DNA from: Rosistilla ulvae
GTDB lineage: Bacteria > Planctomycetota > Planctomycetia > Pirellulales > Pirellulaceae
DNA: 64,000 bases
Reading direction: 5' to 3'
Assembly: GCF_007741475.1 (NCBI RefSeq)
Contig: NZ_CP036261.1
Span: 620,001-684,000, forward strand
Both the position numbers and the translations under genes were made by a program. The notes beneath the pieces are model-generated. The model did not search any database. It was given only the letters and a program-made list of their open reading frames with translations, and was not told the origin of the DNA. Shown here in pieces: positions 48,211 through 58,429 of the stretch; within the stretch, counting starts at the first letter, position 1; the number at the start of each line of letters is the position of its first letter.

Positions 48211-50325
48211 CTACTTCGGTTCGGCTTGGTGCGTTTCGAAGTGTGTCCGCCGCACGTGTTCCGCCTTTTTGACTTCGGCGACGACCGTGTTGTATAGGAC
48301 TTCTTGAGCCCGGAAACGCTTGCCTTTGGTCGGCGTTTTGCGTGTGTAGACGCCGTCGGGTCCCAGTTGCCAGGCGTTGACGTTGTCCTGGAAATAGGTG
48401 TCCAGCGACTGCAGCAGCTTCTGCCGGCAGGCGGTATCTTGCACCGGGACAAACAGCTCGACGCGGCGGTCGAGGTTGCGAGGCATCCAGTCGGCGCTGC
48501 TGATGAAGACAGCTTCGTCGCCGCCGTGGTGGAAGTAGGCGATTCGCGCGTGTTCGAGGAAGCGATCGATGATGCTGGTGACCTCGATGTTTTCGCTGAG
48601 CCCCGGGACGCCCGGCTTCAGGCAGCAGATGCCGCGGATGTTCAGTTTGATCTTCACGCCCGCTTGGCTGGCGCGATACAGGGCATCGATGATCGTGTTG
48701 TCGACAAGCGCGTTCATCTTCGCCACGATCACCGCGCGTTGGCCTTGGGCGCGGCGGCGAGTTTCGTTTTCGATCAACGATAAGACGCGCGTTCGCAAGC
48801 TGGTCGGGGCCATCGACAATTGGTGGAACTGCTGTGGCTGGCTGGCTCCGATCACTGAATTGAAGAAGTTGGTCGCGTCGGCGCCAAATTCTTCGTTGCA
48901 GGTCATCATGCTGACGTCGCCGTAGAGAGCGGCTGTTGCTTCGTTGTAGTTTCCCGTGCCGAAGTGAACGTAGCGGGCGATGCCTTGCGTTTCGCGGCGG
49001 ACGACGATGCAGATCTTGGCGTGCGTCTTGAGTCCTCGGACGCCGTAGACGACTTGCACGCCGGAGGCTTCCATTTCGCGAGCCCATTCGATGTTGCGGG
49101 CCTCATCGAAACGGGCCTTCAGTTCGACGATCGCGGTGACGTATTTGCCTCGCTCCGCCGCTCGCATCAACGCCGCGACGATCGGGCTGTTGCGGCTGGT
49201 TCGGTACAGCACCTGTTTGATCGCCAGCACGTCGGGATCCTCCGCTGCCTCTTGGATCAACCTGACGACGGGGTCAAATTGTTCGTAGGGGTGCAGCAGC
49301 AATAGGTCGCGTTGGGCGATGTTGTCGAACATCGATTCGGCGGGATCGATCTCGGGGGAATGTTGCGGAGCCCAGTGCGGATCGCGGAGCGCCGAAAATC
49401 CTTTCAGTCCAGCCAGTTGGAACAGGTAGGTCAGGTCCAGTGGGCCGCGCATCGACGTGATGTTTTGATCGCACAGATCCATCTTGTCGCTCAAGAACTG
49501 CAGCATCTCTTCGCTCACGCGCTCGTCGATTTCTAGACGAACGCAGCCCGAGGTGCGGCGACTCTCCAGCAGTTCTTCCATCCCGACCATCAGGTCGCGT
49601 GCGGAGTCTTCTTGGATCGCGATGTCGGCGTTGCGAGTGACGCGAAACGCGATGCATTCGGCGACTTCACGCCCGTTGAAGAACTCGTCGATGTGGTGAG
49701 CGACGACATCTTCCAGCAGGGCGTAGGCGTAGCCCCCTTCGGTCGGCAGCGTAACCACGCGTCCCACGGCTCGGCCCAGTGGAATGATCGCGTAATCCCA
49801 AGGCGTCTCTTCGGTCAGGCCTTTCAAGCGAACGCACAGCTGGATGGTCAGCACTTGGACCAGCGGGAATTCCCCGCTGCTGACGATCTGTGGCGAGAGG
49901 ACCGGTTGGATCAGGGTTTGGAAAACCGAGCGGACCGTCTTTTGATGTTGCTCTCCCGCCTCGCTCATCGTGACCCGTGCGATGCCGTGAGCCTGTAGCG
50001 TCGGTTCGATATCTTCCAGCAGGATCCGGTACTGGTCGTCGACCATTTTGCGATAGCGCGTGCGGATCGCGGACAATTGTTCCGCGGTGCTCCGCCCCGA
50101 CGGATCGGTGAACGATTCGGGACGCCGGCTTTGCAAGATCAGCCCGCCGACGCGGACCATAAAAAACTCGTCCAGATTGGAACTGGTGATCGCCAGGAAT
50201 TTCAGCCGCTCCAGGGCGGGATTGTTCTCATCATCGGCGTGATCCAACACGCGTTGGTTGAATTCAAGCCAACTGAGTTCGCGGTTGAAGAAGCGATTTT
50301 CTGGCAACGGTTCCGGTTTATTCAC
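48211..50325 (-). CDS. ppk1: Polyphosphate kinase 1
   Basis: 704 residues, starting GTG. Reversibly polymerises the terminal phosphate of ATP into polyphosphate; inner face of the membrane or cytoplasm. The N-terminal domain starts RFFNRELSWLEFNQRVLDHA; the catalytic histidine motifs are YVHFGTGNYNEATAALYGD and, near the C-terminus, IDRFLEHARIAYFHHG. The second phospholipase-D-like motif contains Arg and Lys residues (KARFDEARNIEWAREM, NIRGICCLKPGVPG). No exopolyphosphatase is adjacent. It converges with the small gene at 47653. Confidence 0.96.
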   Translation of the reverse strand: MNKPEPLPENRFFNRELSWLEFNQRVLDHADDENNPALERLKFLAITSSNLDEFFMVRVGGLILQSRRPESFTDPSGRSTAEQLSAIRTRYRKMVDDQYRILLEDIEPTLQAHGIARVTMSEAGEQHQKTVRSVFQTLIQPVLSPQIVSSGEFPLVQVLTIQLCVRLKGLTEETPWDYAIIPLGRAVGRVVTLPTEGGYAYALLEDVVAHHIDEFFNGREVAECIAFRVTRNADIAIQEDSARDLMVGMEELLESRRTSGCVRLEIDERVSEEMLQFLSDKMDLCDQNITSMRGPLDLTYLFQLAGLKGFSALRDPHWAPQHSPEIDPAESMFDNIAQRDLLLLHPYEQFDPVVRLIQEAAEDPDVLAIKQVLYRTSRNSPIVAALMRAAERGKYVTAIVELKARFDEARNIEWAREMEASGVQVVYGVRGLKTHAKICIVVRRETQGIARYVHFGTGNYNEATAALYGDVSMMTCNEEFGADATNFFNSVIGASQPQQFHQLSMAPTSLRTRVLSLIENETRRRAQGQRAVIVAKMNALVDNTIIDALYRASQAGVKIKLNIRGICCLKPGVPGLSENIEVTSIIDRFLEHARIAYFHHGGDEAVFISSADWMPRNLDRRVELFVPVQDTACRQKLLQSLDTYFQDNVNAWQLGPDGVYTRKTPTKGKRFRAQEVLYNTVVAEVKKAEHVRRTHFETHQAEPK

Positions 50326-50661
50326 GGCGCATCAGGGGAATGAACGAGAGCGGATACAGTAAGCATGTTGGGGCAGGGTAGGGGGCCAGCCCGGTTGGAT
50401 CAATCGCAGCTTGTCATTGCCCCAACTCTAATAAACTCTAGCGTTGTCGAATCGAAGATACGATCACCCCTGGCCAGATTTCATCGTGGCAGCGGACCGA
50501 TTTTTGATCGCGATTTACTCGCTTGATTGCTGCCGTTGCGAGGTCGAGAGTGCGGGAGAGGAGATCGATCGCTATCGATCCTCCGCGTCCGTTGGAGCTC
50601 GAGCATGCGATGTCGCTGCTGCCCCGACGGCGGCCTTCGTCGAAAGCCTGAAAGAAATGAG
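50326..50661. other. Intergenic region between ppk1 and tRNA-Leu
   Basis: 336 bp. It should contain the ppk1 promoter at its left end. It contains GGGCAGGG and GGGTAGGG octamers at 50371-50383 and a short AGGAGATCGATCG/GATCGATCCTCC-like inverted pair around 50568-50585. No gene recognised. Confidence 0.4.
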
Positions 50662-50744
50662 TGCGGATGGCGGGATTTGAACCCGCACGCCCGTGAAGGC
50701 ACTAGCCCCTCAAGCTAGCGTGTCTGCCGTTCCACCACATCCGC
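50662..50744 (-). tRNA. tRNA-Leu (anticodon GAG)
   Basis: The minus strand folds as a tRNA with a long variable arm (class II): a 7-bp acceptor stem GCGGATG/CATCCGC, anticodon stem CTAGC/GCTAG around loop TTGAGGG (anticodon GAG, reads CUC/CUU), T loop TTCAAAT (GGGTTCAAATCCC). A discriminator A ends the molecule and the terminal CCA is not encoded. It lies 42 nt downstream of the PafA-like gene on the same strand. Confidence 0.93.
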
Positions 50745-50786: not shown

Positions 50787-52487
50787 TCAATGCCGGTCGC
50801 GTTTAGTCAGAGGAGCGGGACGCCGGGGCGGTTTGACCGCAAACGTCCGGCGACTCTTGCCGCTGCCGATGATCACGTGCGACCAAGAGGCGGAGATGGC
50901 GGTCTCGGAGCCAGCAAATTCGCGGATTAAATTGCCTCGCCGCGACGCGGGGGTGTCTTTGGGAGGCATCCGCATCGCGCTGGAAATCTCGTCGACTTCG
51001 ACTATCGAACAGCAGGGAACCGCTCCCGTTAAACGGTGGTAATATCCGTTGGGCGAGAGTTCGTGGTACCGCAGATCGACCTTTTTCCGCGACGCCAGGC
51101 TGGCATCGCTCCCCATCTGATCTATCAGCCACTTTTTTGAGGCCCAGTCGATCTTGGCTAACGACGGTTCGTAGTCGACCGGCAGTTCGCGGATCTGCCC
51201 GGCTGCGTCGAGCATCTGTTCCCACAGTTCGAGGATGTCCCAGGCTTCGGAGTTGGCCGGTTCCTCGCTGTCGAAGACGAATTGGCGGCAGCGGTGCAGG
51301 TAGGCTTGCTGGATCTCCAACGCAGTCATCGGACCGCTGTTGGTCGCCACGCGAGCGATCAGGCTCCAGTCGCTGGCGATCTGTTGCAGCGCCTCGAGCG
51401 GTTTCTTCAGCTTGGGCAGCCCCTTGGCGTAGCCCGCTTCGATCATGTCCAGGACGAGGCTTGTCGCGCCGACTTTTAAATACTCCGCCGCATCGGCGAC
51501 GTTCGAATCGGCCAATCCGATCTGCAGTCGCTGGCGTCGCCCCAGCAGTTCCAGCAGGCAGCGGGGCGAGATGATCGATTCGCTGCACATCGTTTGCAAC
51601 CAGTGACCGAAGACATAAATCGGCCGCTCGTTCAGATAACCGCCCATGCCGACCATGCTGTTGATCGCGGCGGCTTTGCCCGAAAGCGAGAACTTGCCGC
51701 GAGCATTTAAATGTCCCGAACCGCAGAGGATCGTCCGCGAGATCAGGAACGGCGTGAGCCCTTGGCGTTGTTGGCGGAAGGCGGTGAAGCGGGCGACCAG
51801 CCACAGCAGGCACGTCAGCGGAGCGTGAACGATTCGCAGCAGTCCCGCGGCGGCGCGGATGCACCAGTTGGGAATGTCCAGCAGGCTTTCCAGGCAGGGG
51901 CGGCGGCCGCGAACGATCGCGCCGACGCTCTTCAGCGAGACCAGCAGCGAAACGCCTAAGAAGGTTAGTGTCAGGCAGATCGCGACGTACAGCATGTACA
52001 TCGGGATCAGCATCAGGATCCCGGCGCGGTAGGCCCACAGCATCGGGCCGCTGGCGACGTCGGCCGAATAATTCTCTTGGCATCCGTAGACATGGTCTTC
52101 GGCATCGCGGGAGTTTTTCAGCAAGCAGACCGAAGCGGGGAGGTCGCATTCGGCGACCGCGTCGGCGAACAGCCGATCTTGAGCGCGTTGGCAGACCAGC
52201 AGATTGCGTGGGCTGCTGCATTCGGGAGTCGCTCCTTCGATCAATCCGCCCGGTTGGTCCATCCAATCGAAGCAGGATTCCAGCGAGATCGCACCGCCGG
52301 TCGCAAGGAACAATCGGCAATCATCGAACCTCGCCTTGGCCGTCGGGACCGATTGCGTCAGGCTCTTGCAGACCGCATCGTAAACCTCGCGTCGCGATGG
52401 CGGATGTTCCTGGTCGGCTGGCGTTTGAACGACCGTAGCGTATTCGGTTTCCAGCCCGATGTGGCGGCGCAGCAACCGGCTGGGCAC
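50787..52487 (-). CDS. PafA/Dop (Pup ligase/deamidase) family protein with transmembrane insertion
   Basis: 566 residues from GTG 52487. Member of the PafA/Dop family, relatives of glutamine synthetase; PafA joins the C-terminal Glu of Pup to target lysines with ATP, Dop removes it. Motifs match in order: GLETEY (Glu13, Glu15, metal), ATPECSSPRNLL, NSRDAEDHVYGCQENY, LTPFLISRTILCGSGH, GLADSNVADAAEYLKVGATS, VLDMIEAG, TALEIQQAYLHRC, YHELSPNG, RMPPKDTPASRRG. The catalytic Asp of the family (YLD in Mycobacterium) is Glu70 here. Between residues about 149 and 235, at the loop before LTPF, a membrane segment of two or three helices is inserted (GILMLIPMYMLYVAICLTLT and more). A longer reading starts at TTG 52562, but the GTG sits 4 nt after the small gene's stop. 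Confidence 0.88.
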   Translation of the reverse strand: MPSRLLRRHIGLETEYATVVQTPADQEHPPSRREVYDAVCKSLTQSVPTAKARFDDCRLFLATGGAISLESCFDWMDQPGGLIEGATPECSSPRNLLVCQRAQDRLFADAVAECDLPASVCLLKNSRDAEDHVYGCQENYSADVASGPMLWAYRAGILMLIPMYMLYVAICLTLTFLGVSLLVSLKSVGAIVRGRRPCLESLLDIPNWCIRAAAGLLRIVHAPLTCLLWLVARFTAFRQQRQGLTPFLISRTILCGSGHLNARGKFSLSGKAAAINSMVGMGGYLNERPIYVFGHWLQTMCSESIISPRCLLELLGRRQRLQIGLADSNVADAAEYLKVGATSLVLDMIEAGYAKGLPKLKKPLEALQQIASDWSLIARVATNSGPMTALEIQQAYLHRCRQFVFDSEEPANSEAWDILELWEQMLDAAGQIRELPVDYEPSLAKIDWASKKWLIDQMGSDASLASRKKVDLRYHELSPNGYYHRLTGAVPCCSIVEVDEISSAMRMPPKDTPASRRGNLIREFAGSETAISASWSHVIIGSGKSRRTFAVKPPRRPAPLTKRDRH

Positions 52488-52491
52488 GGCG

Positions 52492-52659
52492 CTATTCGCC
52501 TTGTTGCTGTGTGTTTGCACGGCGAATGTACTCGCGAGGGGATCGATGGGCGTCGCAGACAATCTTTTGGGCTACATCCTGCAACGCCCCTTCGTTTGCC
52601 GACGGAGGAGGGGAGGCCGTGGGGAGGTTGGCACGTTTGACGGGTGTCTGTGTTGTCAT
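52492..52659 (-). CDS. Pup/UBact-like small modifier candidate
   Basis: A 55-codon ORF on the minus strand, ATG 52659 to TAG 52494-52492, ending 4 nt before the PafA-like start, so the two form an operon. The N-terminal half is Thr/Pro/Ala/Ser-rich and probably disordered (MTTQTPVKRANLPTASPPP); a helical middle follows (LQDVAQKIVCDAHRSP), and the end is REYIRRANTQQQGE. Pup proteins are small, disordered with a helical region, and end in Gly-Gly-Glu or Gln; the UBact family from Gram-negative bacteria ends in Gly-Glu/Gln. Here the last residues are Gly54-Glu55, consistent with the PafA substrate C-terminus. Weak Shine-Dalgarno. No homology search was run; the call rests on position, size and C-terminus. 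Confidence 0.7.
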   Translation of the reverse strand: MTTQTPVKRANLPTASPPPSANEGALQDVAQKIVCDAHRSPREYIRRANTQQQGE

Positions 52660-52908: not shown

Positions 52909-55218
52909 ATGATCTTCCCCGCGCCCGACATTCCCCGCTTGCTCGTCTCCAATCGCTATCTGTTGCTGGTGATTGCAGTCGCAGTTTTTGCGCTGGCTTG
53001 GTCGATCGATCAACGGTTGCAGTTCGATCGGCGGATCGAGCGGATGTTTCCCGAAGCCGATCCGGCGGCGCAGGCTTACCAACAATTAAAAGAGACCTTC
53101 GGCGGCAACGAGGTCGCGATGTTGACCTATCCCAATGCCGATCTGTTCGATCGCAGCGGGGCAGGGCTGAAGTTGCAGCGAGAGTTGACGCAGCGGATCG
53201 AAGCGCTGCCGGGGGTGGCGAGTGTGTTGAGTCTCGCCAAAGTCGATGTTGCCCTGACCAAGATGCGTCCGGCCGCGTTGTTCTTCGCCGCCGATTCCAC
53301 TCCGCAAATCCTGGCCGACGATTCATTAGCCACCGCGTTTCGTGAACTGTTTGCCGGCTACACGCACTCCGACGATGGCGACTATGCCGCACTGGTCGTG
53401 ATGTTGGACCCGCAGCGCACAACAGTCGATGGCCAAGACGCCGCGGTCGCTGGACTTCGCGAAATCGCGGCGACGCTACCCGCCGAACATCAGCCGGCGA
53501 GTCTGGTCGGCGAGCCGGTTTTGGTGAGCGAAGGTTTTTCGATGGTCCAAGCCGATGGTCGGCGCTTGGGATTGGTGACGCTGTCGCTGTTGTCCGTCGC
53601 GATGTTTGTGATGTTCCGCTCGCTTCGCTGGGTGCTGGTGCAAGTCGTTGTGATCTGTTGGTCAGTCGTCTGCACAAGAGCTTTGGTCGCCTTAGTCGGT
53701 CTTCAGTTAACACTTGTCAGTTCGATGTTGACCGCCGTGGTGACCGTGATCGCCGTAGCGTCGATCATTCATCTTGCGGTGGCCGACCGCAACGCGCGGC
53801 TGCGTGGCCGGTCGGGACTTGAAGCGACCGTGTTGGGGCTGCGCGGTGTGCTGCGGCCGATCGCTTGGGCTTGCCTGACCGATGCGGTCGGCTTCGCCGC
53901 GTTGTCGGTATCCGACGTGGGGCCGATTCGCGATTTTGGATGGATGATGGCGATCGGAGCCTTAGTTGTATTGGTCGCGATCGTTTTGTTTGTGCCCGGC
54001 TTGGCCTCGATAGGACCGGCCGGCGGAGGCTCGCGTCCGCGGCAGACCAACCGCCGCGTGCGGCACGCGATGTATGCCGGTTACCATTGGCTGACGCTGC
54101 ATCGGAGGATCGCGCTCGCCGCGCTTGTGTTGCTGACGATTGGGATTTCGCTGGGGCTGGGGCGGCTGACGATCGAGACTAATTTCATTCGGAACTTTCG
54201 CGCCGACCATCCGCTTGCGATCGATTACCGCATCGTTGAATCGGATCTTGGTGGAGCCGGGGTGTGGGATGTTTTGTTGCCGGCTCCCGACCTCCTTTCC
54301 AGCGAATACCTGGCCAGCGTGCGCGAGTTGGAAGATCGGCTGCGTGCGATCGGCGACCAGCCCGACGCGCGGTTGAGCAAAGTCTTTAGTATCGCCGACG
54401 CCGACGAAGCGGCCAGTTCTTCGCCGCTGCTTGCGATCGCGCCGCCGTCGTTGCGGATCGCTGGCATGCGCGCGTCGATGCCATATTTCATCGATGCCTT
54501 GGTCGCTGGACCGTCGACCGATGGTAAGCCGGCGATGTTGCGCATGATGATCCGCAGCAGCGAGCAAGTTCCGGCGGAAACGAAGCAGCAATTGATCGCC
54601 AGCGTTCGGCAGACCGTTGGTGAGCATACCGCTTCGGATCGTTGGAAAGCGTTTTTTGAAGAGGGGCGGCCGGCGGGCGATCCGCAGGTGACGGGGTATT
54701 ACGTGTTGTTGACGGGGCTCGTCTCGGGGCTGGTTGCCGATCAGTGGATCTGTTTCGGGGTCGCGTCGTTGGGCGTGTTTGGGATGTTGTGGATCGTCGC
54801 CAGGTCGCTGAAGCTGGCCGTTTGCGGGATGCTGCCGAACATGCTGCCGATTCTCGGCGTCCTGGCGTTGTTGGGCTACTGGGGAACGCCGGTCAATCTG
54901 GGGACCGCAATGATCGCCGCGGTTTCGATTGGGATCTCGATCGATGGATCGATTCATTTTCTGTGTGCGTACCGTCGGCATCGAATCGGTCACGGCGTGC
55001 AGCGATCGATCGCCAGCGTCTATCAAACCGTTGGCATCGCGGTGATCTTGGCGACGCTGTCGTTGACGATCGGGTTCTCCACGTTGGCGACCAGCCCTTT
55101 CATTCCGACGGCGACGTTTGGCGTACTGGTCAGCATCACCTTGGTCGTCAGCAGCATCGCCAACCTGACGCTGCTTCCATTTATGATCCGCATCGTCGAC
55201 GGGACTGGCTCCCGTTAA
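52909..55218 (+). CDS. MMPL/RND-superfamily exporter
   Basis: 769 residues, two similar halves. Each half has an N-terminal membrane helix (LVSNRYLLLVIAVAVFAL; RIALAALVLLTIGISLGLG), an extracytoplasmic loop of about 150-200 residues, and a block of five helices with the sterol-sensing-domain-like pattern (MLTAVVTVIAVASIIHLAV; GISIDGSIHFLCAYRRH with the Asp of the proton path). Typical of the MMPL branch exporting lipids or hydrophobic compounds, including hopanoid transporters; the substrate is unknown. It is divergent from the Pup-like module, 249 bp away, and is followed 11 nt later by the DUF2817 gene. Confidence 0.9.
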   Translation: MIFPAPDIPRLLVSNRYLLLVIAVAVFALAWSIDQRLQFDRRIERMFPEADPAAQAYQQLKETFGGNEVAMLTYPNADLFDRSGAGLKLQRELTQRIEALPGVASVLSLAKVDVALTKMRPAALFFAADSTPQILADDSLATAFRELFAGYTHSDDGDYAALVVMLDPQRTTVDGQDAAVAGLREIAATLPAEHQPASLVGEPVLVSEGFSMVQADGRRLGLVTLSLLSVAMFVMFRSLRWVLVQVVVICWSVVCTRALVALVGLQLTLVSSMLTAVVTVIAVASIIHLAVADRNARLRGRSGLEATVLGLRGVLRPIAWACLTDAVGFAALSVSDVGPIRDFGWMMAIGALVVLVAIVLFVPGLASIGPAGGGSRPRQTNRRVRHAMYAGYHWLTLHRRIALAALVLLTIGISLGLGRLTIETNFIRNFRADHPLAIDYRIVESDLGGAGVWDVLLPAPDLLSSEYLASVRELEDRLRAIGDQPDARLSKVFSIADADEAASSSPLLAIAPPSLRIAGMRASMPYFIDALVAGPSTDGKPAMLRMMIRSSEQVPAETKQQLIASVRQTVGEHTASDRWKAFFEEGRPAGDPQVTGYYVLLTGLVSGLVADQWICFGVASLGVFGMLWIVARSLKLAVCGMLPNMLPILGVLALLGYWGTPVNLGTAMIAAVSIGISIDGSIHFLCAYRRHRIGHGVQRSIASVYQTVGIAVILATLSLTIGFSTLATSPFIPTATFGVLVSITLVVSSIANLTLLPFMIRIVDGTGSR

Positions 55219-56306: not shown

Positions 56307-56420
56307 CCGACACGAGCGCTGGAGTCGAGGCTTCAGCCGAACGAGTATGGTTGTTGGAGTGGTAGGCTTTAGCCGAACCGATGAGGTTGAACTCGCGTCC
56401 GCTGAAGCCACGACTCCAAC
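56289..56420. repeat. Short repeat array with inverted unit
   Basis: The intergenic space before the AlkC-like gene contains three direct copies of a ~20-bp unit (GGAGTCGAGGCTTCAGCCGA type; 56289-56310, 56319-56340, 56353-56377) followed by an inverted copy at 56401-56420. A single-strand transcript could fold any direct copy with the inverted one. Function unknown. Confidence 0.7.
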
Positions 56421-56467
56421 CGAGACGCTCGAACTATCTATTCATCACAGAAAGGAATCGCAAAGCG

Positions 56468-57607
56468 ATGGCGAAGGAGCGAACCGGTACCGGTTTTAGT
56501 CTGAAGGATCATCTGTTCAATCGAGAACGCGTCGAATATCTGGCGGGGCTGTTGCATGCCGCCGACGATCGCTTCGACGCTTCGGGATTTGTCCGCGATA
56601 CGATGCGGTCGCTGAAGTCGCTGGAGCTAAAGCAACGGATCACACACATCGCCGAGATGTTAGAACAACATTTGGCGAGCGATTATCACGCGGCGGTAAA
56701 ACATTTGGTCGCCTCGCTGCCGCCGCCGTTGGATCCGACCAAGACCGACGATGACTTTGGCGATTTCATCTTTGCCCCGTTGGGGGAATTTGTGGTTCGC
56801 AACGGAACTGCGAAAAAGCATCTGCCGCTGTCGCTGAAGACATTGAAGCAGCTGACGCAGCGGTTCTCGATGGAGGATGCGATCCGCACGTTTATCAACG
56901 AGCATCCCGAAGCGACGATGGCGGAGTTGGCAAAATGGTCGACCGACAAGAACTATCACGTTCGCCGATTGGTTAGCGAGGGGACGCGTCCCAAGTTGCC
57001 GTGGTCGAAGCGGTTGACGATCGATCTGCTGGAGCCGCTGCCGTTGTTGGATACGTTGCACGCCGATCCGACCCGTTATGTCACGCGATCGGTTGCCAAT
57101 CATTTGAACGACATCGCCAAATCGCATCCGGATCAGGTGTTGCAGCGGTTGCGCAGCTGGGCAGGGCAGGGGGCTCAAGATCCGGCGGAGCTGGATTGGA
57201 TGAATCGGCATGCGCTGCGGACGTTAGTGAAGCAGGGGGATGTCGACGCGCTGCAGTTTCTCGGCTTCCATGCCAACCCGAAGATCAAGGTCAGCCAATT
57301 TGAATTGGCTTCTGACGAGATCCGTCCGGGCGAAGCTGTCGAGTTTTCGTTTGTGATCACCGCGGATCGCGAAGAGTCGTTGTTGGTCGATTTTGTCATC
57401 GACTTCGTCAAGGCCAACGGAAAGCTCTCCCCCAAGGTTCATAAACTCAAACCGTTGCAGCTGCGCAAAGGTGAATCGACAACGGTTCGGAAGCGTCATG
57501 TATTGCGAGCCAACGCGACGACTTACACCTTGTATCCAGGAACGCATCATTTGACTCTACAGATCAACGGCAAGCCGTCCGGAACGCAAACGTTTGAGAT
57601 CGTGTAG
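56468..57607 (+). CDS. DNA alkylation repair enzyme, AlkC/AlkD-like HEAT protein
   Basis: 379 residues from ATG 56468. An all-helical HEAT-like array fills residues about 20-270 (LAGLLHAADDRFDASGFV, HPEATMAELAKWSTDKNYHVRRLVSEGTRPKLPWSK (shortened), NHLNDIAKSHPDQVLQRL). The C-terminal ~110 residues are beta-rich and Ig-like (IRPGEAVEFSFVITAD, KLSPKVHKLKPL), as in the AlkC branch that excises alkylated bases. The catalytic details differ between AlkC/AlkD members and were not verified. Two GGGCAGGG octamers lie at 57159-57171. It is followed by the repeat cluster. Confidence 0.85.
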   Translation: MAKERTGTGFSLKDHLFNRERVEYLAGLLHAADDRFDASGFVRDTMRSLKSLELKQRITHIAEMLEQHLASDYHAAVKHLVASLPPPLDPTKTDDDFGDFIFAPLGEFVVRNGTAKKHLPLSLKTLKQLTQRFSMEDAIRTFINEHPEATMAELAKWSTDKNYHVRRLVSEGTRPKLPWSKRLTIDLLEPLPLLDTLHADPTRYVTRSVANHLNDIAKSHPDQVLQRLRSWAGQGAQDPAELDWMNRHALRTLVKQGDVDALQFLGFHANPKIKVSQFELASDEIRPGEAVEFSFVITADREESLLVDFVIDFVKANGKLSPKVHKLKPLQLRKGESTTVRKRHVLRANATTYTLYPGTHHLTLQINGKPSGTQTFEIV

Positions 57608-57674
57608 CAGGCGTTCGAACGCGGGGCAGGGCAGGGGGGCGAATCGCCGATCCCGAAGGACCCGATTTTCAGAA

Positions 57675-58335
57675 GACCCAACCGGTCGGTGTTATGTCAG
57701 CCCAGGGCAACGCCCTGGGAAAACGGAGCGGACCAAAATGAAATGTCAGCCCCAGCGGGGCGATTCTACGTCGATCGCCATTTGCGTTGCGTCGGTGATG
57801 TAGAGCCGCCACGTTGTGGCTTCGCGTCGATGTTGGCGGGGCGGTTCCCAGGGCAACGCCCTGGGAAAACGGAGCGGACCAAAATGAAATGCCAGCCCCA
57901 ACGGGGCGGTTCTACGTCGATCGCCATTTGCGTTGTCTTGGAAATGTAGAGCCGCCACGTTGTGGCTTCGCATCGATGTTCATGGGGCGGTTCCCAGGGC
58001 GTTGCCCTGGGCTGGCGTAGGGATGTCCCGTTGGGACGTTGGAATTCGTGCGGCCGCGTTGCGGTCGTGTCGGGTGTTTGCGTGTTTGGATTGTATTTTC
58101 CAAAGACCCAACGGGTCGGTGTTATGTCAGCCCAGGCCAAGGCCCTGGGAAAACGGAGCGGACCAAAATGAAATGCCAGCCCCAACGGGGCGGTTCTACG
58201 TTGATCGCCATTTGCGTTGCGTCGGTGATGTAGAGCCGCCACGTTGTGGCTTCGCGTCGATGTTCATGGGGCGGTTCCCAGGGCGTTGCCCTGGGCTGGC
58301 GTAGGGATGTCCCGTTGGGACGTTGGAATTCGTGG
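57675..58335. repeat. Cluster of interspersed ~150-230 bp repeats with short palindromes
   Basis: A unit of about 150 bp occurs three times (57675-57846, 57847-57991, 58104-58275), with one extra copy of the tail at 57993-58050. Inside each unit lie short stems: GCCCAGGGCAACGCCCTGGG, GCCCCAACGGGGC, GCCACGTTGTGGC and CCCGTTGGGAC. ORFs seen here are side effects of the repeats. No coding, tRNA or IS features were found. Confidence 0.88.
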
Positions 58336-58429
58336 ACGTTGGAATTCGTGGACGTTGGATTTCGTGGACGTTGGATTTCGTGGGCGGTTGGATTTCGTGG
58401 GCGGTTGGTTTCGCGGGACGGGCGGTTGG
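58319..58429. repeat. 16-bp tandem repeat array
   Basis: About six copies of GACGTTGGAATTCGTG, decaying to GGCGGTTGGATTTCGTG-like units of 16-17 bp. It directly follows the interspersed repeats and ends about 60 nt before the start of the glycosyltransferase gene, so it lies in its upstream region. Confidence 0.88.

Follow-up and report, generated by a model that had tools for sequence, protein, structure and literature searches.

A putative membrane-bound, proteasome-independent pupylation gene pair in Rosistilla ulvae and its relatives

What might a Pup-like protein modifier be for in a bacterium in whose genome no 20S proteasome beta subunit is detected? Research on pupylation has dealt chiefly with delivery to the actinobacterial proteasome, and the question is raised by a locus of the planctomycete Rosistilla ulvae. 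The window, by which we mean the whole stretch of 64,000 nucleotides analysed here (NCBI RefSeq assembly GCF_007741475.1, contig NZ_CP036261.1, positions 620,001 to 684,000), carries a small open reading frame (ORF) ending in Gly-Glu, followed after 4 nt by a PafA/Dop-family gene. The two had been picked out in an original prediction made from the letters alone; both are confirmed where it placed them, and the gene pair is real. A two-gene, proteasome-independent, membrane-bound pupylation system is in our view the best explanation of it, with a probability of roughly three in four. Its parts, all on the minus strand, are as follows.

52492..52659, minus strand: Pup-like modifier ORF, ATG start, TAG stop, 55 amino acids (aa), C-terminal Gly-Glu
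52488..52491, minus strand: 4-nt gap from the modifier stop to the probable ligase start, kept in two congeners
50787..52487, minus strand: PafA/Dop-family enzyme (PF03136), predicted to be membrane-anchored, 566 aa, GTG start probable
52443..52457, minus strand: GLETE, the GhExE Mg/ATP motif, residues 11-15; G11, E13 and E15 in 54/54 aligned rows
52278..52280, minus strand: Glu70, aligned with the PafA active-site Asp (alignment to 4b0t); Glu in 53 of 54 rows, Asp in one
51738..52049, minus strand: helical hydrophobic insert, residues about 147-250, directly after core strand 4, by hydropathy and model

Mechanical calling draws its longest ligase ORF from a TTG further upstream, at 52562, which would make it overlap with the small ORF.

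First, is the small ORF a gene, and does it belong to the enzyme? A scan of genome contigs yielded 80 related loci, mostly of Planctomycetota with a few of Myxococcota and others, 75 of which have usable upstream DNA (L026, L048 and L050 were dropped for less than 200 nt upstream, L073 and L081 for a split or partial ligase). Outside one clade, 54 of the 55 usable loci carry, immediately ahead of the ligase, a same-strand ORF of 40-200 aa ending in GE, the sole miss (L072) being a modifier cut off at a contig edge and yet counted as a miss; of the remaining mechanical ORFs that reach 200 aa in these loci, 0/618 have such a neighbour, with ligases measured from the GxExE motif and controls from their first possible start. 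The ORF, its C-terminal GE and the gene order, whose conservation in relatives had been proposed as a check, are thus kept. In the remaining clade (L022-L042) no small ORF stands beside the ligase in any of 20 usable loci. The modifier adjoins the ligase in both of two congeners, being identical over all 165 coding bases in one and differing by 4 bases and 4 residues, in the N-terminal half, in the other. Over 30 modifier pairs, the nonsynonymous rate (dN) is below the synonymous rate (dS) in 24 and above it in 1, with dS undefined in 5, estimates that are noisy on ORFs so short. It is therefore extremely improbable that we are dealing with a chance ORF or a mere leader coupling translation of the ligase: the 4-nt spacing would suit coupling, and the exceptional and undefined pairs and the wholly non-synonymous congener differences fit such a reading, but the control ORFs, the 24 of 25 pairs of defined dS with dN below dS and, against a leader-only reading, the retention of the protein at loci away from the ligase all oppose it.

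The window modifier, whose tail reads NTQQQGE, also looks like Pup. Pup-like proteins have been described as 50-90 aa long, with a bihelical core, an extended tail and a C-terminal G[EQ], encoded beside a PafA-family gene (Iyer, Burroughs, & Aravind, 2008; PMC2588565, here and below as far as its available text goes). Length, GE end and adjacency agree with this, and a structural model (predicted local distance difference test, pLDDT, 82.1; predicted template modelling score, pTM, only 0.44) suggests an unstructured N-terminus, two helices (residues 21-39 and 41-48) and an extended tail, the same succession that those authors gave for Pup. A profile blind to the tail, its last six columns removed, matched 70 distinct ORFs (distinct hits only, training rows included), and 69 of the 70 end in GE; the exception looks spurious. 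Family databases do not name the protein: in scans in which the HMMER filters discard most weak matches, it matched 0 Pfam families at E up to 10 and 0 NCBIfam families at E up to 1, the models of actinobacterial Pup included, and no fitting family was found in Pfam for 10 modifiers scanned (three weak matches, unrelated) or in NCBIfam for the window modifier and seven others of the same type. Since the family models tried do not name it, annotation is likely to miss the modifier. Such pairs had been suggested to be under-described; the type as such was described in 2008 (PMC2588565).

Second, what kind of enzyme is the partner? By its sequence it is a member of the Pup ligase superfamily, with a full-length PF03136 match above the curated cut-off (267.7 bits against 25, E 2.6e-79, profile positions 1-440 of 441). 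It falls far short of the cut-offs of the equivalog models of both PafA (TIGR03686, 166.5 bits against 551.3) and Dop (TIGR03688, 158.3 against 492.3). Its AlphaFold2 model (pLDDT 93.6, pTM 0.93) superposes on Dop 4b0r with Z 42.4 and a root-mean-square deviation (rmsd) of 2.2 over 410 aligned residues and on PafA 4bjr_B with Z 37.0 and rmsd 3.0 over 419, so that the modelled fold appears somewhat nearer to Dop. In our ligase alignment (A3; 54 rows, the window enzyme and 53 of the 80 loci), G11, E13, E15, E84, D128, E138, R251, R320 and D327 are conserved in 54/54 rows. The active site listed for PafA and Dop, namely GhExE, acidic residues in strands 2-3, [HQ]x[NH] in strand 4 and an Arg in strand 5 (PMC2588565), is represented by GLETE, E84, D128, QEN at 137-139 and R320. 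We tried to sort the enzyme as PafA or Dop by known residues; the answers were mixed, and it is left unassigned.

The insert sets the enzyme apart. Matches by sequence to PafA and Dop of solved structure are interrupted at this point; the model has a strand at 136-143 and then a helix at 147-193, hydrophobic stretches run over 153-192 and 213-232, and at least one hydrophobic segment lies within the insert in 54/54 aligned rows. The membrane-type Pup ligase of Iyer et al. has transmembrane segments right after core strand 4 (PMC2588565), the same place, although four segments were told there and hydropathy and model here suggest long helices. The description of the enzyme as a PafA-like ligase with nearly all motifs thus holds for the superfamily and the kept active-site residues, and has to be amended for the membrane insert, an Asp-to-Glu change, scores below the equivalog cut-offs and a structure nearer to Dop.

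Does the enzyme attach the modifier or remove it? It is conceivable, though unlikely, that it is mainly a hydrolase (a Dop-like depupylase) or an exchange enzyme, conjugation being done by another agent or by a second pair. Dop being the best structural and profile match and the presence of two PafA-family genes in the R. ulvae genome speak for this. However, of the 119 genomes in the family that have PF03136, 104 contain a single match, and an enzyme that stands alone has to be the one that ligates, provided that tagging occurs at all; the modifiers read carry a terminal Glu, making deamidation unnecessary; and the second gene has a modifier of its own. The single matches and the Glu-ended modifier argue for a ligase. 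PafA itself is able to remove and move Pup (PMC5358908), so one enzyme could do both ligation and removal.

Third, is there a proteasome for the modifier to serve? No proteasome, Mpa or second PafA gene adjoins the pair in the window ORFs and family scans, which bears out the original prediction for the neighbouring genes. At genome scale, the 20S beta model TIGR03690 had 0 matches at E 0.001 in R. ulvae, with archaeal controls positive and the alpha subunit not searched, and a convincing 20S beta was found in 0 of 28 genomes tested (four weak partial matches). Matches of TIGR03689 (pup_AAA, Mpa/ARC) in the R. ulvae genome cover the AAA core only, positions 161-420, at no more than 142.9 bits, and every one of the 28 genomes and 14 controls has such core-only matches. 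The combination of 20S beta and Mpa/ARC that would mark a Pup-proteasome genome is hence not found here. Long Mpa/ARC matches (8-481 and 18-480) do occur in G038 and G061, beside tandem soluble PafA/Dop genes. The idea of a pupylation-type, possibly non-proteasomal system therefore survives, with its paired modifier, its retained GE and no 20S beta or full-length Mpa; what does not survive is its picture of a plain PafA in a single pair, and the two genes are not adjacent in every genome.

Those soluble loci deserve mention in their own right. L179 (G038 C26) and L180 (G061 C163), loci from the same taxonomic order, have tandem soluble PafA/Dop-family genes with a long Mpa-like ATPase match, and each encodes a small protein that on visual inspection resembles ubiquitin (in L179 without a Pfam match). 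L179 also carries a ThiF/E1-like gene along with a JAB match below its cut-off, L180 a Pup-like ORF ending in SGQ; the two resemble a cross between ubiquitin-like and pupylation systems, with 20S beta not clearly found. In L181 (G129 C433), two tandem long PafA-family ORFs lie near a partial Mpa-like match, a JAB match below cut-off and a Pup-like ORF ending in QSGQ, and G129 has a membrane-type pair too. In L182 (6342-7980, G107), a short divergent PafA-like gene lies between a small ORF ending in PSGE, which precedes it, and the gene for a WD40-repeat protein of 1403 aa; a similar-looking second long ORF lies upstream.

Fourth, how many such systems does the organism have? The pair had been treated as single. 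A second PF03136 gene, with its own insert, lies at C1:2173906-2175519, 1.5 Mb from the first pair, beside a modifier ending in VVVPDGGE, and both pairs are present in 3/3 genomes of the genus. In a ligase tree built by a quick method, the window enzyme belongs to clade II; the other one groups within clade III, close to the second Roseiconus nitratireducens enzyme, a join that is unsure because both are long branches. Tail type follows ligase clade: the third-last residue is G in 32/32 counted clade III modifiers, 0/20 of clade I and 0/21 of those going with clade II-type ligases (the window, L020, L021, L054 and 17 unlinked ones; the ligases of G137 and G165 are absent from the tree, and L026 is labelled unlinked there although excluded from the pairing count). 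This would fit two enzymes each reading its own tail. We propose, tentatively and with more doubt than belief, that the genus may run two separate membrane-anchored, proteasome-free pupylation systems with orthogonal tags (QQQGE vs PDGGE), possibly as regulatory rather than degradative marks on the membrane.

Fifth, where is the modifier when it does not adjoin the ligase? When whole genomes were searched with the modifier profile, 17 of the 18 that have an unpaired ligase (the 18 being 16 of clade L022-L042, plus G137 and G165) proved to contain an unlinked homologue; some matches are weak alone (E up to 0.07), but the tail is shared, all 17 ending in DGE and 10 having RSNT in the tail. The draft genome G150 gave none by profile search. 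At one locus of Rhodopirellula europaea the genes for modifier, ligase and a large membrane-like protein are consecutive, and the last of these genes (L054 11849-14509; no Pfam match), which is not present in the window, also lies near 7 of the 17 unlinked modifiers (L160, L162, L164, L165 and L170-L172), which suggests that the ligase moved away. In Rhodopirellula maiorica (G165, L123/L127, a draft), a membrane-type ligase is split over two frames, next to which stands the finding of an uninterrupted unlinked modifier ORF.

Of 241 genomes in the family, both genes occur in 107, the modifier only in 2, the ligase only in 12 and neither in 120, at thresholds of E 0.01 for the modifier (109 genomes) and E 1e-10 for PF03136 (119 genomes); second ligase-match fragments in G248, G255, G261 and G330 were left out, which does not affect the genome counts. 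The Fisher value of 1e-51 for this co-occurrence overstates independence, as the profile was partly built from these genomes and the genomes are related. The modifier adjoins the ligase in 76 of the 107 genomes and is not adjacent in 31 (among them G223, probably since both genes sit at contig edges). The ligase family is less frequent in the wider order (11/146 genomes).

How, then, might the system work? We picture the helical insert holding the enzyme on the cytoplasmic face of a membrane. There the enzyme would consume ATP in phosphorylating the modifier's terminal Glu at its gamma-carboxylate, and would then transfer the modifier to an amine, most probably that of lysines in proteins located in or at the same membrane. 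As the modifier is Glu-ended from the start, a deamidase would be superfluous, and removal of the modifier, if any, may fall to the same enzyme; the outcome would probably be regulatory rather than degradative. Alternatively, the acceptor could be a membrane amine such as a lipid head group, the modifier becoming lipid-bound in the manner of Atg8. An active site that the insert would place at the membrane, together with a genome in which neither 20S beta nor a full Mpa was found, would suit this; we nevertheless consider it quite unlikely, as positive evidence is lacking and known members of the Pup ligase family use protein lysines. Very unlikely, in turn, is a carrier role, in which the C-terminal Glu would be loaded with a small amine for biosynthesis. 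The amino-group carrier LysW ends in GE, and the likeness is one of resemblance only, a small Gly-Glu-ended protein with an ATP-dependent ligase; the loci have no conserved biosynthetic neighbours, the enzyme family is that of Pup ligases, and the hydrophobic insert is present.

Several observations weigh against a membrane-bound pupylation system. The modifiers are very diverse, with identities to the window modifier of 11-36% among those of profile A2, so that kinship rests on position, tail and profile. The catalytic Asp of PafA and Dop is a Glu here, also in an alternative alignment that puts Glu84 (54/54) at that site. In Dop, the corresponding Asp, D94, has been described as most likely activating water (PMC8599861). 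The residues that sort PafA from Dop are mixed, F60 (54/54) and A86 (44/54) being PafA-like and P88 (51/54) Dop-like. Nothing around the loci points to targets: clustering of the mechanical ORFs revealed no widely shared neighbour, the next largest cluster covering 12 loci. Finally, there are the 12 ligase-only genomes by profile A2. A second profile, A4, recovered 2 of them, one of which had supplied a training row, and matched none of 6 ligase-less genomes; the remaining 10 are drafts of 110 to 1210 contigs. Among the ligase-only genomes, G346 has a tandem layout like that of the soluble genes of G129, and in G191 the PF03136 match is weak.

Is the type new? Iyer et al. (2008; PMC2588565) predicted a membrane-type Pup ligase with Pup in Rhodopirellula and Plesiocystis, noting the insert, no link to the proteasome and a possible role on membrane proteins. 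Theirs and ours share a Pup gene beside the ligase, the insert after core strand 4, a G[EQ] tail and no linked proteasome genes, and our pair therefore belongs to an already known type; theirs has a linked membrane-protein gene, whereas none is seen beside the window pair. Two pairs per genome, the active-site Glu, the tail classes and the unlinked modifiers are not told in the main text of that paper as available. PMC2837639 merely takes up their report, and the available text of PMC8223512 does not mention planctomycetes. PafA/Dop homologues of Planctomycetes have served as a tree root and been called single copy (PMC7947786); by description alone, with sequences not compared, they are probably the same protein group, although all three genomes of this genus have two. 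A literature search, judged largely by its listings and with most subscription journals outside its scope, turned up PMC2588565 as the sole paper found to describe membrane-type Pup ligases. It revealed no experiment on them, nor any account of two pairs in a genome, of unlinked modifiers or of the Asp-to-Glu change, and these last three features seem to be unreported.

With the actinobacterial Pup-proteasome system (Pup, PafA, Dop, Mpa/ARC, 20S), the pair shares the small Glu-ended modifier, the enzyme fold and the Mg/ATP residues; it differs in PafA and Dop scores below equivalog level, the lack of a full Mpa and of 20S beta in its own genome, the membrane insert, the Asp-to-Glu change and a modifier outside the Pfam families. 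UBact of Gram-negative bacteria is likewise a small Glu- or Gln-ended modifier with a PafA-type ligase and is tied to proteasome genes, a likeness and a difference that we draw from general knowledge, with no sequence compared.

The genes around the pair are the following.

50661-50744: tRNA-Leu, following the ligase gene
48211-50325: polyphosphate kinase, following the ligase and tRNA-Leu
52909-55218: MMPL-type transporter, divergent, upstream of the pair

Elsewhere in the window, positions 57668-58414, after an ORF at 56381-57607, hold a 204-nt repeat in three copies, 77-100% alike to the reference copy, along with inverted 54-nt arms and a run of 16-nt repeats.

What would the pair mean for these bacteria? 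The modifier is Glu-ended in every case read, and the pair is common in the family. If our explanation is true, a ubiquitin-like tag would here serve a purpose other than degradation, tied to the membrane, with two tags per cell, and the enzyme would provide a naturally occurring variant of the PafA/Dop active site with Glu for Asp.
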